NCBI RefSeq assembly: GCF_013343235.1
Contig: NZ_CP040094.1
Location: forward strand, 744,501 to 808,500
Reading direction: 5' to 3'
From: Nostoc sp. TCL240-02
GTDB taxonomy: Bacteria > Cyanobacteriota > Cyanobacteriia > Cyanobacteriales > Nostocaceae
DNA: 64,000 bases
Shown here: piece after piece, positions 1 through 63,856 of the stretch
Layout of the letters: each line of letters opens with the position of its first letter
Position numbering within the stretch: the first letter of the stretch is position 1
Program-made: the position numbers and the translations under genes
The notes under the pieces: generated by a model
What the model saw: the letters and a program-made list of their open reading frames with translations, nothing else
Database searches by the model: none
What the model was told of the DNA's origin: nothing

Positions 1-59
1 CGATCGCTAATTTGCGAAAGCGATCGCACTCAAAGCTGATGTAGAATCTTACAATCTCT

Positions 60-1688
60 TTAAAGGTCAAAAGTAACTTTATATTTCTTACCTGATGGAG
101 GAACGTTGCGATTAACTAAATCTGAGACAGTGTTGGTATTCTGAAGAATTTCCCAACCTACAGGAGAAAAAGTTTCTTTATTGAAGATATTGGGTGATAG
201 TAAAGGATTGGTTAGCGCCTGAGAAAAGGCATCAATCCCAATTAAGCGTGCTACTAAAGCAGGGATAGTTGAATTCTCGCGCCCATCTTCGGCGTAAAGC
301 CCCACAAAGAACTCAATCTTATCAACATGACCATATAATTCTTTGAGTTTTTGTTGAGCAAATTCATTGCCAGTAACTTGTTCAAATCTCGTCACTCTGG
401 GGAAACCGCACAATTCTCGATAATCGTTGTAGCTTGCCAATTGCAGTTGTCGTCCCAGTCTGATTGAGGGTAACTCGGTTAATTCCACCAATATATCAGG
501 GGTGTTAAATAAACCAATTTTTGTACCTGGTTGAGAGCAAGTTTCCTCCATCAATGCCCCTAAACCTTGGTCAATAAACATCTTATTGTTCCAAAGAGAT
601 GCAGCAATATGAGTTGGTTTACCGTTATAGTTAAATGTTTCTGGAATCGCACTATGCCAGCGATAAACAAAGTCAAACTCAATTGCCATATAGTTGGGAC
701 GATGCCAACTTTCTTTGGTAAAAGCTTCTGGATCGGCAAACAACTTAAAGTGATAAGGAGTGATGTGGTTAATGTACTCTTCCATAATGATTTTTAGAAT
801 CATCGCCATAAGAATATTTCTCGATGTTTGGAAGAGGCGTTCATCATCCCAATCTGGATAATTGCTCGCTAATTCATCACAAAGACGATTATGTTCGCGG
901 AGACATAGAGTGTTGAGCATTACATAACCAATTTGTACGTTTGCTCGTTCTACTCCCATTGCAAACATATATTGCTTTTTATCTACAGACTGTCTTTTTT
1001 CATCATTCAGGGGTTCATAAAGACCTTCAAATTCAGGTTTAATTTTATCCAGTGCTGGATCTGCATAATAAAACAAAGGATATTCTTCTTCTACACCATC
1101 TTGGCGTTTGAGTTTCTGAGTCTTTAATTTACCTCCTTGAAAACTTCTTAAAAGATGTGTTTGTTTTCTGGTTAAACCATAAACATTACACAAATCAATT
1201 TCATGGTTGGAAGTATTTTTTAGTTTATTGTAGTGATTAAGGCGAAGAAAGCTATCTGTAAACCATTGCACCCAATAGGGAAACAGCATAGTTGATTTGC
1301 CAGAATAAATAGTTTTACCGTCTCTTTTACGGAATAAAATAGCTAGGTCTTCAACTTTGGGTAGATTACCCTCAGCGTTTAACTTGGGATCGGGTGGTAG
1401 ATGCCTTCCTGTATAAGTGCGATCGTTGAGTGATTCCCAGGAAGTATAAGTATCAGTTTTCTTAGGAATTTTAGTATCAGGAATATGCTCATCCAGAGTC
1501 ATCATGCTGTAGGGATTAGGACGAGTCGGAATTTTATAGATGAGGCTGTTAAGCAGAGTTTTATTAACTTTACGTGCGATAGATTTGTTACTTTGGAGAA
1601 GTTGCCAAATTGGTTTAAAGTGGGTTAACACGTATGTTTGAATTTTGTTATCTAACCCGTCTTTGGATGTATCTCTTTTTCCAGTCAT
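60..1688 (-). CDS. Cyclooxygenase-like haem peroxidase / fatty-acid dioxygenase
   Basis: The 542-residue protein aligns by eye along its length with animal prostaglandin H synthases and belongs to the animal-type haem peroxidase superfamily. The segment REHNRLCDEL...LFQTSRNI matches the family. Tyr342 and His345 in VYRWH correspond to the radical tyrosine and proximal haem ligand of COX (Tyr385/His388). At the distal haem side the match to FAQHFTHQF reads VQWFTDSF: Gln141 is kept, but the distal histidine position is Asp145. There is no signal peptide or EGF domain, so it is probably cytosolic or peripheral. It lies 83 bp downstream of a same-strand DUF2235 hydrolase, which could release its lipid substrate. 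A fatty-acid oxygenase role is inferred from the family; the substrate is unknown. Confidence 0.8.
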   Translation of the reverse strand: MTGKRDTSKDGLDNKIQTYVLTHFKPIWQLLQSNKSIARKVNKTLLNSLIYKIPTRPNPYSMMTLDEHIPDTKIPKKTDTYTSWESLNDRTYTGRHLPPDPKLNAEGNLPKVEDLAILFRKRDGKTIYSGKSTMLFPYWVQWFTDSFLRLNHYNKLKNTSNHEIDLCNVYGLTRKQTHLLRSFQGGKLKTQKLKRQDGVEEEYPLFYYADPALDKIKPEFEGLYEPLNDEKRQSVDKKQYMFAMGVERANVQIGYVMLNTLCLREHNRLCDELASNYPDWDDERLFQTSRNILMAMILKIIMEEYINHITPYHFKLFADPEAFTKESWHRPNYMAIEFDFVYRWHSAIPETFNYNGKPTHIAASLWNNKMFIDQGLGALMEETCSQPGTKIGLFNTPDILVELTELPSIRLGRQLQLASYNDYRELCGFPRVTRFEQVTGNEFAQQKLKELYGHVDKIEFFVGLYAEDGRENSTIPALVARLIGIDAFSQALTNPLLSPNIFNKETFSPVGWEILQNTNTVSDLVNRNVPPSGKKYKVTFDL

Positions 1689-4959: not shown

Positions 4960-5088
4960 GACTACTTTAAAATCTAAGGGATCAAAATTTATCAGCAATT
5001 TTTTCAATAATTTTATCTAAACTTCATATTTTGACTAAATTCAATAAGCAAAATCCGCAATTACTTTCTCAAAAGAAGCTTTGATTTT

Positions 5089-5336
5089 CTCAAACCCCAG
5101 TTTGCTTTCTCATTTTGGTATTTTCCGCAAGTAAAATAAGCTTTGACTTACTCAAACCCAAGTTTACTTTCTCATTTCGGTGTTTTCCGCAAGTGAAATA
5201 AGCTTTTGCTTTCTCAAACCCCAGTTTGCTTTCTCATTTCGGTGTTTTCCGCAAGTGAAATAAGCTTTTGCTTTCTCAAACCCCAGTTTGCTTTCTCATT
5301 TTGGTGTTTTTTGCAAATAAAATGCCATTTCGCTTT
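5089..5336. repeat. 62-bp tandem repeat, four units
   Basis: Units begin with CTCAAACCC at 5089, 5151, 5213 and 5275, giving an exact 62-bp period. Units 2 and 3 are nearly identical; units 1 and 4 are more diverged, and a partial unit can be traced from about 5050. Each unit contains CAGTTTGCTTTCTCATTT, TTTTCCGCAAGT and AATAAGCTTT. No reading frame runs through it and the period is not a multiple of three. Function is unknown. Confidence 0.85.
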
Positions 5337-6974: not shown

Positions 6975-7362
6975 CGTTCACACACTCCTAATCGATACGC
7001 TGCTAGTCAAAAAATCCTTATGTGGCAGGCTTGTATTTTGGGTACTGGGTATTGGGTACTGGGGATTGGGAAGAGACACGAAGTGATTTTTTCAATAATT
7101 CACCCTTGTCCTCCATGTCCCCTCAGTCGTAGTACCCAGTCCCTAATCCCCAGTCCCCAGTCCCCAGTCCCCAGTTCTTAGTCTCCAGATTTTCCCCCTA
7201 TTCCCCTTGTACATTATTTGGGGATTAAGTGTGAGATTTCAGTGAAGCGATCGCAATTTTGTACGATCAAAAATAGTAAACTACTTTTCGCTATCAATGC
7301 TCCACTTTGGAGAATACCCGATAGCTTACCGCTCTTTCACTGACCGTTAACACAAGAATGGC
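6975..7362. repeat. Intergenic region with short tandem repeats
   Basis: The gap between divergent icd and gun4 holds two degenerate heptanucleotide clusters. TACTGGGTATTGGGTACTGGGGATTGGG-type sequence lies at about 7039-7072, and CCCCAGT units lie at about 7130-7190 in the opposite sense. The two clusters are largely complementary and could pair into a long stem. The promoter of gun4 must lie to the right of them, and that of icd to the left or within. Confidence 0.7.
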
Positions 7363-8091
7363 ATGACAGACCCAATGATTTTATCAGGCCCTGCAAATGA
7401 CATCGACTCCCTCCGACAACCATTAATCGCCGGGTCTGAAAAAGTCCAACAACAGACAATCCCACAGTTAGCTGAGTTGGGTAATGAGGGATTAGACGTG
7501 TTGATGGAATTTTTACTGAAACGACGTGAGAACCCAGCGACTTGGATTGATGGCAAAGCTTACCAAGTCCTTTACAACTCTGATGCACCTCAAGCCAAAG
7601 AATTTCTGCGCTCCTGTTTTCCTGAAGGAATTGTACCTCTAAAATCAGAGTGCGGGATTAACTACAATTCTTTACAACAGCTACTTGCTGCTCAAGACTT
7701 CCAAGCAGCCGATCGCGTCACCATCGAAAAAATGTGTGAACTATCAGGGCCAACGGCTGTACAACGCAAGTGGTTGTACTTTACCGAGGTAGAAAATACC
7801 CCGGCTGTTGACTTACAAACCATTAACAACCTCTGGTTAGTCCACTCCGAAGGTAAATTTGGCTTTTCAGTGCAGCGAGAAATCTGGTTGAGTTTGGGTA
7901 AAAATTGGGAGAATTTCTGGCCGAAAATTGGCTGGAAAGAAGGTAATAATTGGACGCGATACCCTAACAGCTTTACCTGGGATTTGAGTGCGCCTAGAGG
8001 TCACTTACCCCTTTCTAATCAGCTGCGGGGGGTACGAGTGTTTGCTTCTTTACTCTCTCACCCTGCTTGGACAAAGAACTCAGAAAAATAA
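7363..8091 (+). CDS. gun4: GUN4-domain protein, Mg-chelatase activator
   Basis: GUN4 binds protoporphyrin IX and Mg-protoporphyrin and stimulates magnesium chelatase at the entry to chlorophyll synthesis. The 242-residue protein has an N-terminal helical bundle (about residues 1-85, LRQPLIAGSEKVQQQTIPQL) and a C-terminal GUN4 core (about 90-235). The core contains YNSLQQLLAAQDFQAADR, the porphyrin-binding stretch around GKFGFSVQREIW, and GNNWTRYPNSFTWDLSAPRGHLP. Both the two-domain layout and the length are normal for cyanobacterial Gun4. Translation starts at ATG 7363. The gene stands alone. Confidence 0.95.
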   Translation: MTDPMILSGPANDIDSLRQPLIAGSEKVQQQTIPQLAELGNEGLDVLMEFLLKRRENPATWIDGKAYQVLYNSDAPQAKEFLRSCFPEGIVPLKSECGINYNSLQQLLAAQDFQAADRVTIEKMCELSGPTAVQRKWLYFTEVENTPAVDLQTINNLWLVHSEGKFGFSVQREIWLSLGKNWENFWPKIGWKEGNNWTRYPNSFTWDLSAPRGHLPLSNQLRGVRVFASLLSHPAWTKNSEK

Positions 8092-8599: not shown

Positions 8600-9742
8600 A
8601 TGGCAAACGTTCGTCTAGAAGATATTAAGCGTAGATTTAATAATGTCACCGCGATCGAGGATATTACCTTTGAAATTCCTGATGGCGAGTTTTGGGTTTT
8701 AGTGGGACCATCGGGTTGTGGTAAATCGACAATTTTGCGAACGATCGCGGGTTTAGAAACCGCCACATCTGGCAAACTCTTTATTGGCGATCGCTTGGTG
8801 AATAATATCCCAGCCAGACAGCGAGATGTGGCGATGGTGTTCCAAAACTACGCCCTCTATCCTCACATGAGCGTGGCGGAAAATATCGGCTTTGGCTTGC
8901 AAATGCGGAAGGTTGACCGAAAAATCATTCAAGAACGGGTGATGAATGTAGCGCGATCACTTTCTCTGGATCACCTACTGGATCGTAAACCCAAACAACT
9001 TTCTGGGGGACAGCAACAACGAGTAGCATTAGGAAGAGCGATCGCTCGTGAACCCCAAGTTTTTTTACTTGATGAACCTTTATCTAATTTAGATGCCCAA
9101 TTACGCGACGATACAAGGGCGGAATTAAAACAGTTACATCAAGAATTAGGGATTACAACTATTTACGTCACCCACGATCAAGTTGAAGCAATGACTTTGG
9201 CTGATAAAATTGTCGTACTAAATCGCGGGCGAATTCAACAAATCGGCGATCCCCAAACTATTTATGCAAGTCCTGCTAATCAAATGGTGGCAAGTTTTTT
9301 AGGTAGTCCACCAATGAATATCTTACCTGCAATCTATCAAAATAACGGTTTTGATGTGAGTGGGCAGTTATTAACGATTCCAGCAGTTGTGAAAGAAAAA
9401 TTACAGTTGCGTCAGGGGCACAGTTATGATTTGGGGATTCGTCCAGAGCATATTTTTATTAACGTAGACGCTTCTCTACGAGACGCTACGCGAACGGCTT
9501 GCCGCACGCTACCGCCAAATCGCCAAGAAGAAAATGAGAGTCACCTGATTGTAGAAGTGAAATTGGTTGAACCTTTGGGAAGGGAAACTTTGATTCGTGC
9601 TGGCTTACCTGGTTCGGCGGTGGTGTTGAATATTCAGGTAGGTGGGGACGTGCGTCCGCGTCCAGGCGATCGCCTTTCTCTACAACTTGATTTAAATCAC
9701 TTGTTTGTATTTGATCCCAAAACTGGGGACAGGATATTATAA
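8600..9742 (+). CDS. ABC transporter ATPase, MsmK/UgpC sugar-type
   Basis: This 380-residue ATP-binding subunit resembles MalK/UgpC/MsmK proteins, which energise import of sugars or glycerol-3-phosphate. The nucleotide-binding domain (about residues 1-235) has Walker A GPSGCGKST, signature LSGGQQQRVALGRAIA, Walker B FLLDEP and the switch THDQVEA. A C-terminal TOBE/OB domain follows. Within that domain, about residues 289-305 are encoded by a dispersed palindromic repeat that keeps the frame. No permease or binding-protein gene is nearby, as expected for an ATPase shared among several importers. The substrate cannot be stated. Confidence 0.9.
   Translation: MANVRLEDIKRRFNNVTAIEDITFEIPDGEFWVLVGPSGCGKSTILRTIAGLETATSGKLFIGDRLVNNIPARQRDVAMVFQNYALYPHMSVAENIGFGLQMRKVDRKIIQERVMNVARSLSLDHLLDRKPKQLSGGQQQRVALGRAIAREPQVFLLDEPLSNLDAQLRDDTRAELKQLHQELGITTIYVTHDQVEAMTLADKIVVLNRGRIQQIGDPQTIYASPANQMVASFLGSPPMNILPAIYQNNGFDVSGQLLTIPAVVKEKLQLRQGHSYDLGIRPEHIFINVDASLRDATRTACRTLPPNRQEENESHLIVEVKLVEPLGRETLIRAGLPGSAVVLNIQVGGDVRPRPGDRLSLQLDLNHLFVFDPKTGDRIL
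9463..9515 (+). repeat. Dispersed palindromic repeat inserted in frame in an ABC ATPase gene
   Basis: The sequence GTAGACGCTTCTCTACGAG followed by ACGCTACGCGAACGGCTTGCC is typical of the short repeats scattered in Nostoc intergenic DNA. Here it lies inside the C-terminal domain coding region without breaking the frame, adding residues such as ASLRDATRTACRTLP. Confidence 0.7.
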
Positions 9743-9852
9743 ATAGTTTCTTAAACTCCCAGAAATAATCACAATTACCAATTTTTTGTAGCCAAAATCT
9801 AAGAAAATAAAAACTGCAATAGAGACTTAATTGATTAGCTGCAAAAAGTTAT

Positions 9853-10632
9853 ATGGCTATTAATCGACGCAATTTATTGTTTTTACTCATAGCGGGTGCG
9901 GGTGCTTTTGCATTAGATGCTTGTGCATCGGCAGAGAAATCTCCTGATGGAAACGCTGCAACTCCTGAATCAACACCAAACACAAAAGCGAATACAACAC
10001 AAAATAAAACAGGTGCTATTCAACTACCGCCTTTACCTTACGCATACGAAGCACTGGAACCACACATTGATGCTAAAACGATGCAATTCCACCACGATAA
10101 ACACCACGCAACTTATGTAAAAAACCTGAATGCAGCGTTAGATAAACACCCAGAACTCAAAGGAAAAACTATTGAAGAACTGTTGCAGAAACTTGACAGT
10201 GTACCACAAGATATTCGCAAAATAGTACGCAATAATGGCGGCGGTCATGTGAACCACTCAATGTTCTGGGAAATTATGAAGCCAAAAGGTGGAGGAGAAC
10301 CAACAGGAAATATAGCCTCGGCGATTAATCAAAGTTTTGGTAGTTTTGCAGCTTTCAAAAAACAGTTTAATGAAGCAGGTGCTAGTCGTTTTGGTAGTGG
10401 TTGGGTTTGGCTAGTGCGTAATAAAGGTGGCAAGTTGGAAGTGACAACTACTGCTAACCAAGATAGTCCTTTAAGTGCAGGTAAATATCCCATTTTAGGT
10501 AATGACGTATGGGAACATGCATATTATCTCAATTACCAGAATCGCCGCGCCGATTATTTAGATGCTTGGTGGAATGTGGTTAATTGGGATGAGATTAACA
10601 AGCGTTTTGCAGCAGCCAGTAAACTTGCATAA
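9853..10632 (+). CDS. sodA: Superoxide dismutase (Mn type), membrane-anchored
   Basis: Dismutates superoxide to peroxide and oxygen. After a 50-60-residue N-terminal extension, the 259-residue protein has the full Fe/Mn SOD fold. Metal ligands by alignment are His80 (MQFHHDKHH), His135 (NHSMFW), and Asp218 and His222 (DVWEHAYYL). The N-terminus has a positive start, a hydrophobic stretch [14 protein letters not shown] and the lipobox-like LDAC with Cys24, followed by a Ser/Thr/Asn-rich linker. This predicts a lipoprotein or membrane-tethered enzyme facing the periplasm or thylakoid lumen, as in other Nostocales SodA. Mn rather than Fe is inferred from overall similarity. Confidence 0.93.
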
Positions 10633-10726: not shown

Positions 10727-11461
10727 TTAAAGAGGCTTTTGAGTAGGTACACCAATAGGACGGGGAAACTGAACTGGTGTGGTGGCTACCTTACGCAAAT
10801 ACACACAGTGCCGGATGCTGTGACTCAAGGGTGTTGTAAATTGTTCGATTGATTCAATAACGCCACCCAACAGCTTCACAGCATTCTGCAAAGCTGTTGT
10901 TTCATCCTTTGTCCAATTACCGCGATAAATTATAGCTAAACCTCCCTGTTTGAGCAGTGGTAAGGTATATTCTGCACAAACAGAAACTGCCCCGACAGCA
11001 CGTATCAGTGCAATATCATAAGCCTTTCGATGCTGAGGATGCTGACCGATTTCCTCAGCTCTACCAACAAGAGTTTTAGCATTAGTAAGGGCAAGTTCAG
11101 ATAATAGATTGTCGAGAAAAGTAATTTTTTTCTGAGTGGAATCCAGAAGAGTAATTGTGCAATTAGTTACTGTCATTGCCACTGGAACACCTGGAAAACC
11201 TGCACCTGTACCAATATCAATGATAGTAGGGGAAGCCGGGGGTAAATTTCCTGATAACAGGGGTAGAATTCCTCGTAGAGAATCCCAGAGATGTTTTTCC
11301 CAAAATTCTTGGGGGTCAGTAATGCGAGTTAAATTTAATTGACGATTACCTTCTAGGATTAACTCATAAAGCCTTTGAAATTGTTCTTGCTGTTGGACAG
11401 TTGGTTGCCAATTCAGAGTTTGCTGCCAGATTTCTGCCATCTCAGGCAATAAGTTTGTCAT
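10727..11461 (-). CDS. rsmG: 16S rRNA (guanine-527-N7)-methyltransferase
   Basis: RsmG (GidB) methylates G527 of 16S rRNA using S-adenosylmethionine. The SAM-binding motif [15 protein letters not shown] and the [21 protein letters not shown] segment are typical. I chose ATG 11461 ([10 protein letters not shown]), giving 244 residues. The open frame continues upstream to 11635, but that extension is encoded by a heptamer tandem repeat and yields an artificial PIPNSQF-periodic peptide. No ribosome-binding site is visible, because the repeat occupies the leader. The upstream neighbour is the ABC ATPase on the same strand. Confidence 0.92.
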
Positions 11462-11464
11462 TAA

Positions 11465-11548
11465 GAATTGGGAATTGGGAATTGGGAATTGGGAATTGGG
11501 AATTGGGAATTGGGAATTGGGAATTGGGAATTGGGAATTGGGAATTGG
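11465..11548. repeat. Heptanucleotide tandem repeat, 12 copies of GAATTGG
   Basis: Twelve perfect 7-bp units abut the start codon of rsmG, three bases from the ATG. The 84-bp length keeps the frame open upstream of rsmG. Purine/pyrimidine-asymmetric heptamers like this are a hallmark of Nostocales genomes. Confidence 0.95.
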
Positions 11549-11631
11549 GGAAAGACTTACTGTAACTTCTCCTCTGCTCCCCCTGCTCCCTGCTCCCCTG
11601 CCTCCCCTGCTCCCCAGTCCCCACTCCCCTT

Positions 11632-12306
11632 TCATACCGATGGTAGAGGTTCTTTGACTTTGGATTCTAAAGTTTTTGGATCTACTGATTGTAGTTCACC
11701 GTGGTTGAGTGTCCAGCAACGATCTGCGATCGCTAACAGATCCCCAGCATCGTGTGTCACTATCAATAGTGTCCAATCTTGTTTGAGTTTCGCTAATAAA
11801 TTTACCAGTTGCCGACGCATTGACCAATCTAACCCAGCGGTCGGTTCATCCAATAACAGTAAATTTGGCTGGCGAATCAATTGCACTGCTAAAGCTAAAC
11901 GTCTCTGTTGACCACCACTCAAAGCATGGGGAGCAGCAGAAAGCGATAAATGCTCTAATCCCACCTCAGTTAGGGTCTGTCTAACTCGTTCTGACCCTAA
12001 CTCAGGATGTCCTAAACGCAATTCTTCTAAAATTGAACCACCACAAAAGTGTCGTTCTGGAAACTGAAATACCAATCCAGCTAATTGTTGTAGCTGTTCG
12101 GCTATAAGTTCTTGTTCCCGCCAGAAGAGTGCGCCAGTAGTGGGTTCGGCTAGTCCTGACAAAATTTCTAATAAAGTACTTTTTCCGGAACCACTAGGGC
12201 CAATAATCAGACCTAGCTGCTGGGGTGCTAATTCCAAGTTGATCGATTTAAGAATCGCTGTTGGACACGCTGTGGGGTGATAATTTACATTTCGGAGATA
12301 GAGCAT
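11632..12306 (-). CDS. ABC transporter ATPase, energy-coupling-factor-like
   Basis: A 224-residue stand-alone ATP-binding protein with Walker [11 protein letters not shown]-loop segment VFQFPERHF, signature [12 protein letters not shown], Walker [12 protein letters not shown] and switch histidine VTHD. The FQFPERHF motif around the Q-loop is characteristic of EcfA-type (cobalt/vitamin) ATPases; related chloroplast ABCI proteins exist in plants. No S-component or EcfT gene is adjacent, so substrate and partner are unknown. It is upstream of rsmG on the same strand, with the repeat cluster between them. Confidence 0.85.
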
Positions 12307-44980: not shown

Positions 44981-45616
44981 TTATAGAACGCCTTTAGAAC
45001 TGGGAATTAAGCCAGCACGACGGGGATCAATTTCCACTGCTAACCGTGCTGCCCTTGCAAAGGCTTTAAATGTCGCCTCTATAATGTGATGGGAATTAAT
45101 GCCATCCAGTTGCCGAATGTGCAGTGTCATTTGGCTATGGTTCACGATCGCCACAAAGAATTCGCGCACGAGTTGGGTGTCATAAGTTCCTACACGCTGG
45201 GTAGGAATTTGCAAGCCGTAGCTGAGGTGAGGCCGTCCAGAAAAGTCTAGCGCTACCTGAACTAAAGCTTCATCCAATGGCGCAAGAAAATTACCAAAGC
45301 GGACAATACCTTTTCTGTCACCTAGTGCTTGGTTGAAAGCTTGACCCAAGGTAATGCCTACATCTTCGTTGGTGTGATGGTCATCAATTTCTAAGTCTCC
45401 CTTGGCTTGGACATCTATATCAATCAGACCGTGGGAGGCAATTTGATGCAACATGTGATCTAAAAACGGAATGCCTGTTGCTGCTGTGCAAGTTCCTCTA
45501 CCATCGAGGTTGATGGTAACTTCCACATCAGTTTCACCAGTGGTACGGCGAACAGTGGCAATCCGAGGGGTTTTTGTTAACTGGTCGTAATTTGAATTAA
45601 CTTTGCTAATTTGCAT
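44981..45616 (-). CDS. hisB: Imidazoleglycerol-phosphate dehydratase
   Basis: A 211-residue HisB catalysing the sixth step of histidine synthesis; it is a manganese enzyme forming 24-mers. Metal-binding motifs are [27 protein letters not shown] and the late [12 protein letters not shown] start it at ATG 45616 (MQISKVNSN). The frame is open to 45748 through a heptamer repeat that gives a PIPHSPF-periodic extension, judged non-native. No ribosome-binding site is visible because the repeat adjoins the ATG. It is downstream of fabI on the same strand. Confidence 0.94.
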
Positions 45617-45700
45617 TGGGAATGGGGAATGGGGAATGGGGAATGGGGAATGGGGAATGGGGAATGGGGAATGGGGAATGGGGAATGGGGAATGGGGAAT
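45617..45700. repeat. Heptanucleotide tandem repeat, about 12 copies of GGGGAAT
   Basis: Near-perfect 7-bp units run directly up to the hisB start codon and occupy the space between fabI and hisB. The arrangement mirrors the repeat in front of rsmG. Confidence 0.95.
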
Positions 45701-45719
45701 TAGCAATGCCCAAATTATC

Positions 45720-46496
45720 TTACATTCCCATAATTTCATATCCTGCATCTACATATAGAACTTGTCCGGTAATACCACTGGACAAATCACTACACAAGAA
45801 AGCGGCAGCGTTGCCGACTTCTAGCTGAGTGACGGTACGGCGTAGGGGAGCTACTTCTTCTACATGATGAATCATATCCAAAATTCCACCCACTGCTGAA
45901 GATGCCAAGGTGCGGATGGGGCCTGCGGAGATGGCATTGACGCGGATATTTTGCGGCCCTAGTTCAGCAGCTAGGTAACGCACACTCATTTCTAATCCTG
46001 CCTTGGCAACTCCCATAACGTTGTAGTTAGGAATTGCTCTAACACCGCCTAAATATGTCAGCGTGACGATACTACCTCCCTCTGTCATTAAAGGTTTAGC
46101 TGCACCACTTAACTGCACCAGCGAGTAGGTACTGATTTCTAAGGCGGTGTTAAAGCCAGAACGAGAGGTTTGGCTAAAATCTCCACTCAAATCGTCTTTG
46201 CTGGCAAAAGCCAAACAATGGATGAGGATATCTAACTTCCCCCATTGCTCGCGGATTGTCTCAAAGGTAGATTGAATCTGTTCCTCATCTTGGACATTAC
46301 AGGGAAGAAATAAGCTTGGATTGAGAGGTTCTACTAACTCCGCGACTTTTTTCTCCATTTTGCCGCGTTCATCCGGCAGATAAGTAATACCCAGGTTTGC
46401 TCCGGCTTTATGCAGCTGTTGGGCGATGCCCCAGGCGATCGAGCGGTTATTGGCAATACCTGTAACAAGAGCATTTTTTCCAGTCAGATTCAGCAT
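45720..46496 (-). CDS. fabI: Enoyl-[acyl-carrier-protein] reductase (NADH)
   Basis: A 258-residue reductase for the last step of each fatty-acid elongation cycle. It has the N-terminal [21 protein letters not shown] dinucleotide-binding site with the FabI-specific SIAWGIA. The catalytic Y-x6-K is present as YNVMGVAK, and [11 protein letters not shown] is the substrate loop. The C-terminus ends [10 protein letters not shown], as in cyanobacterial FabI. hisB follows on the same strand with the heptamer repeat between, so the two may share a transcript. Confidence 0.96.
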
Positions 46497-56764: not shown

Positions 56765-56971
56765 ATTAATCCTTTTGCTTCCAGCCGCTTACTGGAGAGC
56801 AATAAATCCTATATCACTACGCTAGCAAAAGTGACTTGAGATTGTAGATGCCACTAGAAGTAAATCTGCTCAAAAATATAAAGACTCGTGAAACCCAGTA
56901 AGCATAAATATGGTCTTGACTTATGTAAAAATGAACTTGGTCAAAAATCATACTCTGGGCTGATCATCTAA

Positions 56972-57841
56972 ATGAGCAGTAATAGTCAAATCAAAATTCT
57001 GTTTTTAGCAGCAGATCCCAGTAATGCTACACGATTACGCTTGGGGCAAGAGTTACGTGATATTCGTGAGAGGCTGCAATTAGCAAAAGAGCGAGATAGA
57101 TTTATTCTAGACTCGCGTGAATCTGTACGTCCAGGAGATATCAGCCAGGCTATATTCGATGTTGAACCGCAGATTGTGCATTTTTCTGGACATGGAACCA
57201 GTACAGGGGAGCTTTGCTTTGAAGATTTACTCGGAGAATCCCAGCCTGTACAACCGGATGCCCTAGCGGCGTTATTTGAATTGGCAGCCGATCAAATAAA
57301 TTGTGTGGTGTTGAATGCTTGCTATTCCGAAGCTCAAGCAAAAGCTATTGGAGAACATATTCCTTTTGTCATTGGCATGAATAAAGCAATTGGAGATCAA
57401 GTCGCGATCGCTTTTGCTGTTGGTTTTTACAAAGCATTGGCAGCAAGGCGGACAATAGATCAGGCTTACAAGTTCGGTTGTGTCGAAATTAGGTTGCAAG
57501 GCATTGCAGAACATTTAACTCCAGTTCTATACACTAAACAAAACTCAGTGTCTTTAGTCTCAGAGGTACAGCAGATAGCCTCGAACAAATCAACTGGAGT
57601 ACCAAATTCATCGTCGGCTATTTTAAATGCAAGACAAAGGCAGCGATTGCAGCAGCAACTAGACACCCTTCAAGCTGAATGGAATCTCAGGAACAAGAAG
57701 CTTAAGCAGATACAGGAAGCTCTTGCTATTGAGACAAATGTGGCTGTTAAGTTTCAATTAGAACACCAACGTCAAGATGAAGAGGCTCAACTAGAAAGTC
57801 TTGCTAATGAACTAGACAAAATTGAGCAGATATTACAGTAA
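56972..57841 (+). CDS. CHAT-domain (caspase-like) protease with C-terminal adaptor
   Basis: A 289-residue protein. Residues about 6-190 form a CHAT peptidase-like domain: KILFLAADPSNATRLRLGQE, then the catalytic histidine in VHFSGHG (His74) and the catalytic cysteine in VVLNACYSEAQA (Cys117). A linker of about 30 residues leads to a coiled-coil domain (220-289) containing LQAEWNLRNKKLKQIQEALAIE. A homologous segment begins the next protein. It is the first gene of a five-gene operon, 20 bp from the next. In conflict systems such proteases act as effectors; that role is inferred. Confidence 0.87.
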   Translation: MSSNSQIKILFLAADPSNATRLRLGQELRDIRERLQLAKERDRFILDSRESVRPGDISQAIFDVEPQIVHFSGHGTSTGELCFEDLLGESQPVQPDALAALFELAADQINCVVLNACYSEAQAKAIGEHIPFVIGMNKAIGDQVAIAFAVGFYKALAARRTIDQAYKFGCVEIRLQGIAEHLTPVLYTKQNSVSLVSEVQQIASNKSTGVPNSSSAILNARQRQRLQQQLDTLQAEWNLRNKKLKQIQEALAIETNVAVKFQLEHQRQDEEAQLESLANELDKIEQILQ

Positions 57842-57861
57842 ATTAGTCAAAGAATTAGACA

Positions 57862-58953
57862 ATGCCCACCGTTCAACTTTTACTTAATAAGGTCGAGAGG
57901 TTACAAGAAAAATCTGAGGGGTTTCACGAAGAATGGAAACAGCGTAATGATAAGGTAAAGCGACTACGCACAAGTTTAGCAATTGAAACCAGCATATCCG
58001 TAAAGATTCAGTTAGAACAGCAAATTAAGGAAGAGGATGTTCAGCTTAAGAGCTTGGATGAAAAGCTTCAAGAACTGGAAGAGGAGATTGAACAGGCTAA
58101 AAACCTTCTTATTAGAAATAAACAACAGAATGTAGCAAAATCTATTAGTGACGAACTTTTTAAGCGAGAAACACTTTACAAAGTTTTATTAGGACTAGAT
58201 TATATTGACCATGTGCGCTTATTCCGGAGCTTTCTGAAAACAAAACAAGCTGCCGCTTTTGTAATTCATGGCTCTCCAGAAGATACAGAGTATAGTTTAC
58301 AACTACTTTTGAAGCGCCTGCTAGGTGTGATGGAGGGAAAGACAAATTTTCCACTACTAAAAACAAAGTTATCTTGTAGAGTTCGTAAGCGAGATGTCAG
58401 TACGCTATGGCGACAGTTAGCAAGTGAATTTGGTGCTAATTATAATGATTCACCTGATGTAATTGCTGTTAAACTTTGCGAAAGATTGCAAACAGAGCAT
58501 GTTATTTTGCTATTCGACAATATAGAGCTTTTGATTGACATCAATCAATTCATTCAAGATTTATGGCTACCTTTAGTGAAAGTAGTAAAAAAACATCTAT
58601 CTCAGACAAACAGTTGCCAGTTGTTGATGTTTTTAGTTGACTACAACGGTAGTGTTAGCAATTTAACTTTTGAGTGCATCGAGAAATATACTGCAACTTG
58701 GGAACCTCATGTTCCTATTCGATTACCAATGGTGTCCCAATTTTCAGTGGATGTATTAACTGAGTGGGTTAAGTCTTTAGTCGAGGATCTGCCTGATGAA
58801 TTTATTAACCAAGAAGATTATGTGCAATACACAGTTAAGTTTATTTTGCAAAATGGTAATCATGGAGTTCCCGATCTAGTCATGAAACGTATCTGCGACA
58901 TTTGGGGTTGTGATTTGGAAGAAGAGGGAACGAGAAGATGGTTGGAACTCTAG
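57862..58953 (+). CDS. Inactive-STAND-like protein with N-terminal adaptor
   Basis: A 363-residue protein. Residues 10-85 form a coiled coil (EEWKQRNDKVKRLRTSLAIE, KIQLEQQIKEED) homologous to the C-terminus of the preceding CHAT protein. The remainder resembles STAND NTPases with a lost phosphate-binding loop: AAFVIHGSPEDTEYSLQLLL (residues 131-150) lacks GKT, whereas a Walker-B-like strand EHVILLFDNIELLI (212-225) remains. This matches the description of iSTAND proteins, thought to be sensors or scaffolds. It overlaps the AAA+ gene by 16 bp. Confidence 0.7.
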   Translation: MPTVQLLLNKVERLQEKSEGFHEEWKQRNDKVKRLRTSLAIETSISVKIQLEQQIKEEDVQLKSLDEKLQELEEEIEQAKNLLIRNKQQNVAKSISDELFKRETLYKVLLGLDYIDHVRLFRSFLKTKQAAAFVIHGSPEDTEYSLQLLLKRLLGVMEGKTNFPLLKTKLSCRVRKRDVSTLWRQLASEFGANYNDSPDVIAVKLCERLQTEHVILLFDNIELLIDINQFIQDLWLPLVKVVKKHLSQTNSCQLLMFLVDYNGSVSNLTFECIEKYTATWEPHVPIRLPMVSQFSVDVLTEWVKSLVEDLPDEFINQEDYVQYTVKFILQNGNHGVPDLVMKRICDIWGCDLEEEGTRRWLEL

Positions 58954-59894
58954 ACAGAAAACGACTGAAATATACAGGTAAGGTACGGCCCAAGCCAGGA
59001 GAGGAAGACCCAGAGACGGGGCAAATTTTGTATCCCTACCTGCCTAGTGAGAAATTGGTAGAGGCTGTGAATTTAGCGATCGCCCTCGAACGCCCCTTAC
59101 TATTAAAGGGAGAACCAGGATGCGGCAAGACAAAATTGGCTCGTGCAGTGGCTTATGAACTGGGTTTACCTTATGAAGCTTGGTACATTAAATCTACCAG
59201 TCGAGCGCGGGATGGTCTTTATACTTATGATGCCGTTGGCAGGTTGCGGGATGCTCAACTTGCTGCTTCCAAAATAGATGAAGAAGCCGCAGTCAAAGCA
59301 AAAAATGCTGATGCCTATGTAGAGTTGGGTCCGTTAGGACGTGCCTTTCGCAACGAGCAGCCAACTGTGGTTTTGATTGATGAAATGGATAAAGCTGACA
59401 TCGACTTTCCTAACGACCTGCTATTAGAGCTTGATGAGCAAAGGTTTGAAGTCACAGAAGTAAAACAAAACAGTCCGCTCAAGAAAATTCAAGCGAAAGC
59501 GACACCAATTGTTTTTATCACCAGTAACGATGAGAAAGACTTGCCTGATGCTTTCTTACGTCGTTGTTTATTTCACTATGTCAAATTCCCTGAACGTCAG
59601 CAGTTAATCGAGATTGTTAAAACTCGATTTACAGTTTCACCCTTGGAATTAGTGGACGCGATTATTGATCGCTTTTTAGAACTGCGTGAAGAAATGCGAC
59701 GGGACAAGGGCGAAGCAGGCAAAAAGGTCAGTACCAGCGAACTGATGGATTGGGTGCGGATTCTTAGTCATCATCAAGATGATGAAATTCTCAGCAAGTT
59801 AAAAACAGAACTCTTGTATCCTGGGGTGTTGCTGAAGAGTTGGGATGATTATCGCCGTTATGGTGAACAAATCCGTACCCAGCCAGAAGCATGA
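58938..59894 (+). CDS. MoxR-type AAA+ ATPase
   Basis: A 318-residue AAA+ ATPase. Walker A is GEPGCGKT (58-65), Walker B VVLIDEMDKA (144-153), sensor 1 FITSND (193-198), and arginine-finger region DAFLRRC (204-210). MoxR/RavA-type ATPases remodel partner proteins, commonly with a vWA protein, and the next gene encodes one. Its start lies inside the preceding gene and its stop overlaps the vWA start by 4 bp (ATGA), so translation is probably coupled. It is the only protein of this operon with an intact Walker A. Confidence 0.93.
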   Translation: MVGTLDRKRLKYTGKVRPKPGEEDPETGQILYPYLPSEKLVEAVNLAIALERPLLLKGEPGCGKTKLARAVAYELGLPYEAWYIKSTSRARDGLYTYDAVGRLRDAQLAASKIDEEAAVKAKNADAYVELGPLGRAFRNEQPTVVLIDEMDKADIDFPNDLLLELDEQRFEVTEVKQNSPLKKIQAKATPIVFITSNDEKDLPDAFLRRCLFHYVKFPERQQLIEIVKTRFTVSPLELVDAIIDRFLELREEMRRDKGEAGKKVSTSELMDWVRILSHHQDDEILSKLKTELLYPGVLLKSWDDYRRYGEQIRTQPEA

Positions 59895-61033
59895 AGATAG
59901 AAGCTCCCCATGAAGAACTACCACTGCTTGAGCTTTTTACACGACTACGCGAGGCAGGCTTACCCTTGGGGATCGATGAATACCGCCTTGTTTTGAAAGC
60001 TTTACAGGAAGGCTTTGGCACGACTGACCAAGAAGCGTTAGTAGAATTGTGCCGTACCTTGTGGGTAAAATCCCAGGATGAAGAACACCTCTTCAACTAT
60101 CACTTTCAACAGGTAATAACAGAACCTTATCCTCTAAAACCTTCTCTTACAAGGCAAGAAGAGAAAACTACTTTCTCCCCATCTCCCGAAGTACAACAAG
60201 CGTTAGAAAGTCAGGGTAATTATTCACCTGAGCTACCCAATACAACACCTGCCACTGTACCCGTTTCATCGGAATTAATGGAAGTACAGGATGAGATGCA
60301 AGTAGCTGAAGCAGTACAGATTACTACTCAAAACAATGAGGAAATTACTGTTAATCGCTTCACCGAAACTGATGAGTATTTTCCAGTGACGCGGCGGCAG
60401 ATGAAACAAAGCTGGCGGCATTTACGCCGAATGGTACGCCAAGGTTTGCCCACAGAGTTAGACATAGAGGCAACTATTGAGCAAGTGGTACGGCAGGGGG
60501 TTTTGCTAGAGCCTGTACTGATGCCCAGTCGGGTGAATAGAACTGAACTACTATTGCTGATTGACCATAAGGGATCGATGGTTCCCTTTCACGGACTATC
60601 CCAGCGATTAGCCCAGACAGCATTACGAGGCGGACGCTTAGGAAAAGCTAGTATTTACTACTTTCACAATTGCCCAACTAAATATCTTTACCATGACCAG
60701 ACGCGGCAAAAAGCCGAACCTGTCATAGATTTTCTAGCTAAGTTGCGTCCAGAGCGTTCTGCTGTTTTAATTTTTAGTGATGGGGGAGCAGCACGGGGCG
60801 GTTTTAGTCTAGAACGCTTGGAGTTAACCCAAAAATTTTTAGACGAGTTGAAACAGCGATCGCGTTATATTGCATGGCTGAATCCAATGGCAACAGAGCG
60901 CTGGTTTGGCACAACAGCAGGAGAAATTGCCCGTTTAGTGCCGATGTTTGAAGTTAGCCGACAGGGTTTTGATGGTGCGATCGATGTGTTGCGGGGACGA
61001 GCAAGCAAGGCACAATTAAAGTATGGGCTGTAA
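59891..61033 (+). CDS. SAV_2336-type vWA protein
   Basis: A 380-residue protein. The N-terminal domain (about residues 8-75, LLELFTRLREAGLPLGIDEY ... CRTLWVKSQDEEHLF) resembles the SAV_2336 N-terminal region. A variable linker precedes a von Willebrand A domain (about 215-370): LLLLIDHKGSM, IYYFHNCP, AVLIFSDGGAARGG. The metal-site motif is D225-H-K-G-S229 rather than DxSxS, so metal binding may be altered. It is the expected partner of the MoxR-type ATPase, which it overlaps by 4 bp. Confidence 0.85.
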   Translation: MKIEAPHEELPLLELFTRLREAGLPLGIDEYRLVLKALQEGFGTTDQEALVELCRTLWVKSQDEEHLFNYHFQQVITEPYPLKPSLTRQEEKTTFSPSPEVQQALESQGNYSPELPNTTPATVPVSSELMEVQDEMQVAEAVQITTQNNEEITVNRFTETDEYFPVTRRQMKQSWRHLRRMVRQGLPTELDIEATIEQVVRQGVLLEPVLMPSRVNRTELLLLIDHKGSMVPFHGLSQRLAQTALRGGRLGKASIYYFHNCPTKYLYHDQTRQKAEPVIDFLAKLRPERSAVLIFSDGGAARGGFSLERLELTQKFLDELKQRSRYIAWLNPMATERWFGTTAGEIARLVPMFEVSRQGFDGAIDVLRGRASKAQLKYGL

Positions 61034-61067
61034 TTAATCTAACTGGGAGTACTTTAAGGTAGAGAGC

Positions 61068-62789
61068 ATGAAGCCAGAAGTAGCTAGTCGTAGAATTGAG
61101 TCTTTTGGTCAACGCTTCGGGGAAGCACACCTCTATCTGACTTACCATGCAGCCTTTCCGTTAGCCCTCACCCCAGATTTACTTTATCGGCTGTGGGCAA
61201 ATTTCCAACGAGATATTCAGAAGCAAGAGTTGAAAATACCCTGGTTGGCTGTGGCTGATTTACTACTTTCTAGCCTTTGTGATGAGGTAGGTCATGAACT
61301 CTATGAAATGGATACAGCCGTGCGAAATGCCCTGTTGAGAGAGTTGAAAGAGAATCCCCATTTTGGCGAAAAGCGGATTAATGAATTATCTGATTTTTTG
61401 CTTACCTATGTGCGGCAGCAACTTGAGAGCTACGACCCGGATATTCGTGATTTTGCTCAGGCTCAGAGATGGACAGCGTTAGCTTATACGCGACCGAGTC
61501 AGGCGGCGCGTGAATTAGCATTAACTCTTTCCAAGTTGAGATTGGAGGATAAAGCAGAGTGGGTTCGCATGGGATCGCTGATGGAGACTTTTGCAGAGCC
61601 ACTAGCAGAATTTGCGCCCCTAATGACTTATACTCGCGGCATGGTTAGCTTGGCTCGTGGTAATCCTACAAAAGCAGTGGATGAGTTAAGTCAAGTTATT
61701 AGACAGCGACAAAAAATAGAAGTTGCGGGAGTTAACTTACCTGTTCCTAAACTCCTAATTAGACAAGCAGTTGTTCTAGAACTGCCAGAAGGACAAGTGG
61801 ATTTGGCTTCGGCGTTTTATATCGAGCGTCCGCCTATTGAAGCAACCTGTTACAAAAAAATTCTCCAGCCAGGTGCCTTAATTCGGCTCAAAGCACCTCG
61901 GCAGATGGGTCAAACCTCGCTCATGGCGCGCATTCTTCATCAAGCGTCACAACATGATTATCTAACCGTGCTTTTAAGCTTTCAATTGGCAGATGAAAAG
62001 GTTTTTGCAGATTTGGATCAGTTCCTTAAGTGGTTTTGTGCCAGTGTTGGACGGAGGTTAACACTACCCAACAAGTTAGCAGATTACTGGGACGATATTT
62101 TTGGCAGTAAGGATAATTGCACCGTTTATTTCGAGGAGTATCTCTTACCAGAAATCAACCAACCCCTAGCATTGGGATTGGATGAAGTTGATCGTATATT
62201 TCAACATCCGGAAATTGCCGCAGACTTTTTTGGGCTGTTACGCGCTTGGCATGAAGATGCTAAAAACCGGGATATTTGGAAAAAACTGCGGTTGGTAGTA
62301 GTGCATTCTACAGAAGTTTATATTCCAATGAATATCAATCAATCGCCGTTTAATATAGGCTTGCCGATTGAGTTACCAGAATTTAACGCCCAACAGGTTC
62401 TTGATTTGGCACTAAGGCATGGACTCAATTGGAATTTTACCCAAGTTGAACAACTCATGGCGATGGTAGGAGGACATCCCTATCTTGTACGAGTGGCACT
62501 TTATCATATCGCCAGAAAGGATACTACGCTCAATGTGTTTTTGCAAACAGCCCCTACAGAAACTGGCCCTTATAGCGACCATTTACGTCGGCATTTGTGG
62601 AATTTAGAACAGCGTCCAGAATTAGCTGCTGCTATCAAAAAGGTAGTTGCCAATACTAGCCCTGTTCGGTTGGATTCGATACAATGCTTTAAATTACTCA
62701 GCATGGGATTAGTGAAGTTTCAAGACAATGAGGTGATGCCTTTTTGTAACATATACCGTCAGTATTTCTCCGACAGATTTAGAGCTTAA
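61068..62789 (+). CDS. Adaptor fused to degenerate AAA_35-like NTPase
   Basis: A 573-residue protein. Residues 1-235 form a helical adaptor (RRIESFGQRFGEAHLYLTYHAAFPLALTPDLLYRLW..., DLLLSSLCDEVGHELYEMD) found next to MoxR/SAV_2336 genes in cyanobacteria, there fused to different modules. Residues 240-570 match AAA_35-like NTPases: YIERPPIEATCYKKILQPGALIRLKAPRQMGQTSLMARIL, and Walker-B-like LALGLDEVDRIF (367-378). The Walker A lysine is Gln282, so ATP hydrolysis is doubtful. A C-terminal winged-helix-like tail follows. It is the last gene of the operon, 34 bp after the vWA gene. Confidence 0.75.
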   Translation: MKPEVASRRIESFGQRFGEAHLYLTYHAAFPLALTPDLLYRLWANFQRDIQKQELKIPWLAVADLLLSSLCDEVGHELYEMDTAVRNALLRELKENPHFGEKRINELSDFLLTYVRQQLESYDPDIRDFAQAQRWTALAYTRPSQAARELALTLSKLRLEDKAEWVRMGSLMETFAEPLAEFAPLMTYTRGMVSLARGNPTKAVDELSQVIRQRQKIEVAGVNLPVPKLLIRQAVVLELPEGQVDLASAFYIERPPIEATCYKKILQPGALIRLKAPRQMGQTSLMARILHQASQHDYLTVLLSFQLADEKVFADLDQFLKWFCASVGRRLTLPNKLADYWDDIFGSKDNCTVYFEEYLLPEINQPLALGLDEVDRIFQHPEIAADFFGLLRAWHEDAKNRDIWKKLRLVVVHSTEVYIPMNINQSPFNIGLPIELPEFNAQQVLDLALRHGLNWNFTQVEQLMAMVGGHPYLVRVALYHIARKDTTLNVFLQTAPTETGPYSDHLRRHLWNLEQRPELAAAIKKVVANTSPVRLDSIQCFKLLSMGLVKFQDNEVMPFCNIYRQYFSDRFRA

Positions 62790-62905
62790 TTTGTATATTT
62801 GTTTACAAACATATCAAGTTCTAAGTATAATTAATAAAAAATCTTGAATCTTTTAAAATGCGATCGCGCCCCTTTACCAAACGCGATCGCTAAATTTTCC
62901 ATTCC

Positions 62906-63856
62906 CTAACCAATATGCAGATGATTGATCACCGCACTAATTAGATTATGGGTAACAGGAAGACTATCCACGACCATCCCCAGACACAACAGCATCATGT
63001 AGGAAATGGAATAGAGAAACAACTCTTTAGCTACAGCGTGATCCTCTGGGTTATGCAACAACCGCCAAGATTTGTGGATAAATAATCCTCCCAGACTGAC
63101 AGCGATCGCACCATAAAGAATTCCACTTGCACCTAAAGGATAAACCAATAACACGGTTGCAAATACTGTCACCAGCGTATAGTACCAAATCTGCCGTACT
63201 GTTGCTGTGTCACCTTCAATCACAGGTAGCATTGGTATCCCAACCTTCGCGTAATCATCCCGAATCATCAGAGCTAACGCCCAGAAATGGGGTGGTGTCC
63301 ACAAAAAGACGATGCCAAAAAGTAACCATGCTGACCAGCTTAAAGTGCCTGTGACAGCAGCCCAACCCACTAACGCCGGAATTGCCCCAGCTGCTCCACC
63401 AACAACGATATTCTGGGTGGTGTGGCGTTTCAGCCAGTGGGTATAGACCAAAATATAAAAGACGATGCCAGAGAAGGCTAATAGGGCAGCTAACAAATTG
63501 GCAAATACTGCTAGTAATGTAAAGGAAATTGTCGCCAGTGCGATCGCAAAAATTAGAGCATCGCGCGGCTGAACCTTACCGGATGGCATCGGACGATGGC
63601 GCGTCCGCTCCATGTCATAATCAATATCACGATCGTAGATACAGTTAATCGTCTGGGCGCTTGCAGCAGCCAAAGTGCCACCAGTGAGAGTTACTAGCAA
63701 CAGCAATGGGTCAACTTCTCCCTTAGCAGCAATCCACATACTCCCAGCGGTGGTAATCAAAAGCAACGGAATAATCCGAGGCTTCGTTAGCTGGTAATAA
63801 CTTTGAACTACCTGGAAAAATGTTTGGTGGTGGCGAGAGACATTAGTCTCAATCAT
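62906..63856 (-). CDS. ctaB: Protohaem IX farnesyltransferase (haem O synthase)
   Basis: A 316-residue integral membrane prenyltransferase of the UbiA family with about eight membrane segments. It adds a farnesyl group to haem B for cytochrome c oxidase. Active-site motifs are NCIYDRDIDYDMERTRHRPMPSG (with NxxxDxxxD-type acidic residues) and the second aspartate-rich loop MIRDDYAKVGIPMLP. Length is normal. ctaA often precedes ctaB; only 144 bp upstream are available here and no ctaA end could be confirmed. Confidence 0.95.
   Translation of the reverse strand: MIETNVSRHHQTFFQVVQSYYQLTKPRIIPLLLITTAGSMWIAAKGEVDPLLLLVTLTGGTLAAASAQTINCIYDRDIDYDMERTRHRPMPSGKVQPRDALIFAIALATISFTLLAVFANLLAALLAFSGIVFYILVYTHWLKRHTTQNIVVGGAAGAIPALVGWAAVTGTLSWSAWLLFGIVFLWTPPHFWALALMIRDDYAKVGIPMLPVIEGDTATVRQIWYYTLVTVFATVLLVYPLGASGILYGAIAVSLGGLFIHKSWRLLHNPEDHAVAKELFLYSISYMMLLCLGMVVDSLPVTHNLISAVINHLHIG

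Follow-up and report, generated by a model that had tools for sequence, protein, structure and literature searches.

Which end of a MoxR-vWA ternary system senses the invader and which end kills is disputed between two groups (PMC7159879, PMC10907252), and a five-gene operon of Nostoc sp. TCL240-02 raises this question directly. The operon lies in a stretch of 64,000 nucleotides (contig NZ_CP040094.1 of assembly GCF_013343235.1, positions 744,501 to 808,500 of the forward strand), here called the window, which is part of a complete 7.89-Mb chromosome. Five open reading frames (ORFs), all on the plus strand, encode a CHAT protein (gene 1, 56972-57841, 289 amino acids), an iSTAND protein (gene 2, 57862-58953, 363 amino acids), a MoxR protein (gene 3, 58938-59894, 318 amino acids), a vWA protein (gene 4, 59891-61033, 380 amino acids), and a protein in which a linker domain, vWA-L, is joined to an AAA_35 domain (gene 5, 61068-62789, 573 amino acids). 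Successive genes are spaced by a gap of 20 bp, overlaps of 16 and 4 bp, and a gap of 34 bp, exactly as an initial annotation of the window, made from the sequence alone, had given. The five proteins were scanned with Pfam, which upheld the labels CHAT, iSTAND, MoxR, vWA and AAA_35 of that annotation, and NCBIfam, PADLOC, Rfam and tRNA scans were also run. Judged by its sequence features, the operon is an iSTAND MoxR-vWA ternary system, a predicted anti-invader class for which systems with EAD-coupled peptidases have been published (PMC7159879). The annotation's appeal to such MoxR-vWA third-component systems with EAD-coupled effectors was therefore sound; the five-part set, which it took for a possible new variant, does not form a new class, such systems having been published already.

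Four of the five genes recur together in other genomes, in line with the annotation's interpretation. Throughout, L and G numbers denote loci and genomes. Of the 72 loci that contain all four genes, 71 have them on one strand in the order iSTAND-MoxR-vWA-vWA-L, and L121 alone deviates. Two sets make up these 72, namely 55 out of 64 loci (the window and 63 cyanobacterial genome_contigs loci) and 17 out of 18 loci from whole genomes, after prior removal of two duplicate records; since every locus was recruited through vWA similarity, the figures describe co-occurrence given a vWA relative. At least one of the four genes is missing in 9 of the 64 loci and in 1 of the 18, several of these at contig ends, and the four occur together in none of 15 non-cyanobacterial loci.

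The central components show the features of the class: Walker A and B motifs in MoxR, metal-site aspartates in vWA, an inactive STAND protein as third component, and a variable module borne by vWA-L. MoxR (58938..59894, plus strand; AAA_5, 2.1e-10) has both motifs intact (GEPGCGKT and VVLIDE), and 73 of 75 aligned relatives share its P-loop lysine K64. The vWA protein (59891..61033, plus strand) is CoxE-like (VWA_CoxE, 6.8e-12, 45.7 bits against a cut-off of 26.4), and the residues forming its metal site, D225, S229 and D297, are each kept in 80/80; the identity as a vWA protein thus stands, while the narrower SAV_2336 label given to it reached just 51.7 of the 200 bits that NCBIfam requires. 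The iSTAND domain occupies residues ~105-361 of gene 2 (plus strand; PF19995, 1.3e-18, 68.3 bits against 24). It was rightly described as an NTPase-dead STAND: its P-loop is degenerate, it contains no GK[ST] and no Walker A, and GK[ST] is present at this position in just 1 of 74 aligned relatives (two of the 73 others show no letters there). Because iSTAND is without GK[ST] and the AAA_35 domain of gene 5 is without its Walker A lysine, the operon is left with MoxR as its only evidently functional NTPase. In the published class MoxR is described as having no extensions of the VMAP type (PMC7159879). No VMAP family was found among the Pfam matches of the five proteins at E up to 0.1, and bpMoxR, the marker of the beta-propeller subsystem, stayed under its cut-off. 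Kinship with the MAD defence system was considered and rejected, the NCBIfam scores being 89.6 of 475 bits for MadB and 24.9 of 600 bits for MadC; a literature search on it gave no paper on the subject among the matches listed.

The variable end of the system lies in gene 5. Its 3' part (61773..62789, plus strand, residues 236-573) encodes a captured AAA_35 NTPase domain (PF14516, 2.9e-156, residues 239-568) in which the Walker A lysine has become a glutamine (RQMGQTSL); all other copies in the genome with a visible motif have GK (18 AAA_35 matches, 16 above cut-off). Over 934 nt (61778-62711) the module is 92.3% identical in DNA to a free-standing TIR-AAA_35 gene of the sister strain G310, and it is 77-90% identical in DNA to four further free genes, some with an extra trypsin-like domain. 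GKT is kept in 5/5 free TIR-AAA_35 relatives; the window module has neither the TIR domain nor the lysine. In a tree of 27 AAA_35 rows the module is nested within the TIR-AAA_35 clade (support 100/98) and the gene-5 modules of L044 and L034 fall within the CHAT-AAA_35 clade, so that at least two captures must have occurred; the lysine is present in 25 of the 27 rows, both exceptions being gene-5 modules. The syntenic TIR-AAA_35 gene of the window strain (L166, G000:C1:3405031-3406629) has a TIR domain 80% identical to that of its counterparts and a divergent AAA_35 domain (52%). There, the DNA match to the sister strains stops inside the gene, after TIR, and the sister-type AAA_35 domain is found in gene 5 of the window instead. 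Other strains carry fused and free copies side by side: CHAT-AAA_35 in the L044 strain (94.8% DNA identity over 1,626 nt), and an NTPase of 434-436 amino acids in G167 and G306 (95.0% and 90.4% DNA identity, motifs intact), which was probably captured a single time, judging by the module that the two operons share.

In front of the module lies the vWA-L linker domain (61068..61772, plus strand, residues 1-235 of gene 5), which has no Pfam family and a confident structure model, while the AAA_35 half of gene 5 was modelled poorly. This domain is conserved in 63 of the 64 cyanobacterial loci, and vWA and vWA-L form one protein in 6 of the 18 whole-genome loci, the latter of which favours joint action of genes 4 and 5. 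The linker was named vWA-L in PMC8195603, where a minority of iSTAND systems is described as encoding it separately; we equate residues 1-235 with it on the basis of gene order and of the split and fused forms. What follows the linker varies widely. The C-termini of 80 gene-5 proteins fell into 35 BLAST clusters, and of 39 proteins scanned with Pfam, which were picked to span the clusters and are a non-random sample, 31 had a module that passed the curated cut-off, and these 31 show 25 architectures; another seven matched no family, and the match of L113 stayed below its cut-off. The modules include FGE, TIR with FGE, pentapeptide, C14, GUN4, CHASE2, WD40, GH25, CHAT, FHA, SLH and VanY domains, as well as KAP-type NTPase, sigma-70 region 4, macro, DUF1257, periplasmic-binding, response regulator, TPR, CAP, TraG-like, PG-binding and AAA_35 domains. 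A vWA-L relative on the Nostoc carneum plasmid AP018183.1, annotated as a response regulator receiver modulated translation initiation factor, suggests a further module type. Nine vWA-L matches were found on plasmids, every one below 60% identity, and none in phage records.

At the other end of the operon, gene 1 was recognized as caspase-like in the initial annotation, and the His-Cys pair of the CHAT fold is indeed in place: residues ~6-189 (plus strand) match Pfam CHAT (8.1e-8), with His74 in HFSGHG and Cys117 in LNACYS. PADLOC likewise returned its generic CHAT model for this gene, and otherwise sub-family noise. The C-terminus (residues ~220-288, plus strand) forms a helical hairpin that we call EAD9-like, because the EAD9 family PF19962 scored below its cut-off in gene 1 (15.8 of 25 bits) and above it in the relative L057 (28.6 bits). 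This hairpin is homologous to the EAD9-like N-terminus of the iSTAND protein (gene 2 residues ~12-75, plus strand; 46% identity over 54 amino acids). Among the 64 loci, a second EAD gene lies nearby in 30 of the 43 with an EAD on iSTAND, compared with 1 of the 21 remaining, and the EAD-linked effectors of other loci include TIR. This homology was missed by the annotation, as were the vWA-L linker, the lost Walker A lysine and the mosaic structure described below.

In terms of catalytic residues, the two ends seem to differ. All 23 full-length, non-redundant EAD-linked peptidases (16 CHAT, 7 C14) keep both His and Cys, a set that leaves out the truncated caspase remnants L046 and L061, the intact CHAT without EAD of L050, and the duplicate L114. 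A motif search of 11 trypsin-like N-terminal extensions of iSTAND, which are outside these 23, detected the Ser and His motifs in four. In gene 5, peptidase-like domains are broken in five of nine cases (the second copy in L034, L043, L069, L111 and L035). Both situations meet in L043, where the CHAT domain fused to iSTAND has the histidine motif and that of gene 5 lacks it. L111 is a second iSTAND-MoxR-vWA-vWA-L system of the window strain (G000:C1:4453000-4460057), whose gene 5 ends in TPR-CHAT with His and Cys both lost; its nine aligned free CHAT paralogues have the Cys in 9/9, and a His motif that is clear in six and atypical or badly aligned in three. CHAT-domain paralogues lie just upstream of L111, at 4432-4450 kb.

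The EAD-bearing parts are exchanged as one cassette, at a fixed chromosomal site. The operon occupies the interval between an MBL-fold/ferredoxin gene and ctaB (56914..62854), where the 12 fetched genus genomes that lack the operon at this place all have other cargo or little DNA (0.2 to 9.6 kb), with matches ending at 56768-56913 on the left and beginning again at 62840-62915 on the right. While ctaB is present in 53/53 genus genomes and the MBL gene in 50/53, a MoxR of the close type (at least 93% identity) occurs in only six of the 53, the window strain included; it lies between the two genes in G000, G306, G310, G329 and G337, and in G167 it is adjacent on the ctaB side only. Compared with L044, L033 and L149, the window shows 91-93% DNA identity in the CHAT part (to 57525-57646) and from 58939 to 61597-61766. 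The segment between them (57647..58938, plus strand), which contains the effector EAD and the whole iSTAND gene, gave no blastn match in L033, L034, L044 or L149, and protein identity to L033, L034, L035 and L044 is 36-39% for iSTAND and 95-97% for MoxR. The left border lies at about residue 225 of gene 1, where the EAD starts, and the right border is the MoxR start codon; from these borders it follows that the adaptor of the effector was replaced jointly with iSTAND, which carries an adaptor itself. The window-type cassette recurs in L112 (89.6% over 4,079 nt). Some loci show altered flanks as well: L033 has a partial duplication of the ctaB 3' flank (7790-8087 and 8737-9873) around ~0.65 kb behind gene 5, and in L044 and L157 160 bp of the upstream MBL gene are duplicated ahead of CHAT. 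It is possible that these duplications are marks of insertion by flank recombination.

Taken as a proposal about function, these observations can be arranged into a modular sensor-switch-executioner system, with gene 5 as bait or sensor, MoxR-vWA as switch, iSTAND as scaffold and CHAT as executioner; this is the reading we favour, though with a confidence that falls a little short of even. An invader protein would meet the captured AAA_35 module on the vWA-L arm, and its binding would alter the vWA-L/vWA complex. The MoxR AAA+ ring, spending ATP, would then remodel vWA and vWA-L, so that the iSTAND scaffold is released or assembled, a step with a precedent in the NorQ AAA+ ring, which is described as exerting force on the linker of the vWA protein NorD (PMC13036017). 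Next, the EAD of iSTAND would pair with that of the CHAT protein and bring about CHAT clustering, and the clustered protease would cut cell proteins, resulting in growth arrest or death. We infer this polarity because the EAD-iSTAND side holds the active enzymes, while the captured domains, which are diverse and in many cases disarmed, are on the side of vWA-L; the binding, the proteolysis and the immune role are proposed along with it. The roles of MoxR/vWA as switch and of CHAT as effector, which the annotation had suggested, are retained in this proposal, while sensing, one of the two roles (sensor or adaptor) that it had considered for iSTAND, moves to gene 5.

Several observations count against this proposal. 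EAD similarity is higher within loci than under permuted pairing (mean score 122.9 versus 98.8, standard deviation 3.5, 0 of 10,000 permutations, 29 loci), which favours the proposal, but this statistic still contains shared ancestry, and the pairing is imperfect, with a mean rank of 9.7 of 29 and ranks of 21-27 for L055, L095, L078 and L076. The contrast in broken domains between gene 5 and the EAD-linked peptidases (Fisher p 0.0006 when counted by domain) weakens to p 0.10 once related rows are collapsed, and intact gene-5 peptidase domains occur in L034 (first copy), L044, L041 (second frame) and L033. Likewise, the CHAT-AAA_35 module of L044 and the NTPase modules of L112 and L149 retain their motifs, the exact AAA_35 of gene 5 has no free counterpart in the window strain, and the loss of the AAA_35 lysine may be decay. 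L112, despite its window-type cassette, has no CHAT domain, its CHAT-gene remnant (7078-7368) encoding the EAD only, and L150 (G337) is also without CHAT.

The most serious competing explanation is the effector-release model of Kaur et al. (PMC7159879), in which sensing falls to the iSTAND side and processing of the complex to CHAT, with the gene-5 module set free as the effector; in the present operon, the dead NTPase would serve as a decoy for a protein of the invader or as a dominant negative against it. This model is published, inactive effector domains have already been called decoys in the same paper, and the motifs of some gene-5 modules are those of intact enzymes. We nonetheless hold it to be unlikely here, considering that many gene-5 modules have the look of ligand-binding domains or of host components (FGE, WD40, sigma region 4, response regulator, pentapeptide), that the intact EAD-bearing enzymes sit on the iSTAND side, and that a separate group proposed the opposite polarity for relatives bearing a diversity-generating retroelement (DGR) (PMC10907252). 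A different role for the module, in which the dead AAA_35 domain co-assembles with resident AAA_35 NTPases and couples or restrains TIR-AAA_35 and CHAT-AAA_35 systems, is permitted by the 18 AAA_35 matches of the genome, whose homology would allow mixed assembly, and by loci where another AAA_35 gene comes after the free-standing one. This appears improbable, however, given that the nearest free copies in the same genome are just 64% identical to the module and that unrelated modules occupy the same place in other strains.

Two further explanations would do without a conflict role. Cofactor or complex assembly of the CoxD-CoxE kind is the usual job of MoxR-vWA pairs (PMC7159879), and gene 4 does match VWA_CoxE, but a housekeeping chaperone would hardly be expected to have so scattered a distribution (28 of 292 genomes of the phylum have a vWA relative, and 6 of 53 genomes of the genus have the close MoxR type) or to show variable modules and cassette exchange, and we regard this function as very unlikely. 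Slighter still is the probability that the locus is decaying cargo, in which chance fusion created the gene-5 modules and motifs were lost without function. Signs of decay do exist: iSTAND is split into two frames in L044 (8083-9063), MoxR of G329 has an in-frame stop, CHAT is lost in L112, and the Hormoscilla loci are fragmented. On the other hand, all five frames are open in the window, and the ratio of nonsynonymous to synonymous substitution rates (dN/dS) against L044 is 0.10-0.16 for CHAT, MoxR, vWA and vWA-L.

Plant immune receptors are known that carry integrated decoys. The sensor-switch-executioner proposal may be extended to a bacterial counterpart of these, a doubtful but consequential possibility, in which the cell's own immune-like proteins, fused to a constant vWA-L arm and in some cases disarmed, would watch for invaders that target these proteins. 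The fused sources would be the NTPase domain of TIR-AAA_35, the whole CHAT-AAA_35 and the whole 434-amino-acid NTPase, and the sensor end and the EAD-iSTAND end would each be swapped as a cassette of its own, at one and the same place in the chromosome. Taken furthest, the idea would make the system a dismantled STAND receptor, with iSTAND as the dead NTPase, vWA-L as the arm, the module as the sensor, and the ATP step handed to MoxR. If the bait idea is true, it would mean guard-type immunity in bacteria made from pieces of their own immune proteins. The locus offers natural allele sets within one genus (the same site, CHAT and MoxR-vWA, with swapped EAD-iSTAND cassettes and gene-5 modules), and since near-identical free-standing parents are known for three modules, both the EAD pairing and the bait idea are directly testable. 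For vWA-L as the arm of a STAND receptor there is only a weak lead: for its helical model (residues 1-240), the top VIA rows were the STAND proteins 6mfv and 3j2t (Apaf-1 apoptosome), with Avs3 at rank 9, all weak, and vWA-L and iSTAND profiles gave no match to each other. Winged helix and HD2 are the names used for such arm regions in Apaf-1.

Among known systems, the iSTAND ternary systems (Kaur et al. 2020, PMC7159879; PMC8195603) share MoxR, a CoxE-type vWA, iSTAND, an EAD-coupled peptidase and a variable C-terminal module attached via vWA-L, as well as a concentration in multicellular cyanobacteria. Their defence role is a prediction in those papers too, and AAA_35 has 0 occurrences in the main text of PMC7159879. 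The present analysis adds to them the capture of a TIR-AAA_35 module and the joint EAD/iSTAND exchange. Three findings are new as far as our literature searches reach: an immune-like NTPase domain was captured and lost its P-loop lysine, single strains carry fused copies alongside free ones, and the effector EAD was exchanged together with iSTAND at one fixed place. Among the matches listed, searches for integrated decoys in an anti-phage or bacterial context gave work on NLRs of fungi and plants, and a noisy search on AAA_35 with TIR gave nothing on point among the matches listed. VMAP ternary systems with DGR-diversified sensors (PMC10907252) have in common a MoxR-vWA switch and a variable C-terminal domain proposed as sensor, but their third component is VMAP instead of iSTAND, and variation is described there as coming from a retroelement instead of module capture. 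At Npun_F4885-F4890 of Nostoc punctiforme, CHAT, MoxR and VWA genes lie next to variable-module genes, and CHAT, MoxR, VWA and DGR target 2 are reported to be correlated in expression; the variable proteins are DGR targets and no iSTAND gene is named in the passages on this cluster (PMC12691664). Many ternary systems were linked to reverse transcriptases by Kaur et al. (PMC7159879); here, the ORFs of the neighbourhood gave no DGR candidate in a crude scan for motifs, though so weak a scan does not establish absence. The free-standing Nostoc TIR-AAA_35 and CHAT-AAA_35 genes have AAA_35 domains that are 92% (window) and 95% (L044 strain) DNA-identical to the gene-5 modules, but each of them still carries its TIR or CHAT domain and has the Walker A motif intact, while the window module is without both TIR and the lysine. 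Finally, SAVED-CHAT (PDB 8tl0) is activated through SAVED filaments, whereas activation would here run via EAD and iSTAND.

Promoter and terminator scans gave no excess over the shuffled level, and the Rfam and tRNA scans of the window returned no matches. Elsewhere in the window, a 62-bp unit forms an intergenic tandem array of 4.1 copies (5071-5323). Perfect 7-bp tandem repeats of ~12 copies each lie at 11465-11549 and 45618-45700, in the 5' parts of the minus-strand ORFs 10727-11635 and 44981-45748, where a change in copy number could shift the reading frame.

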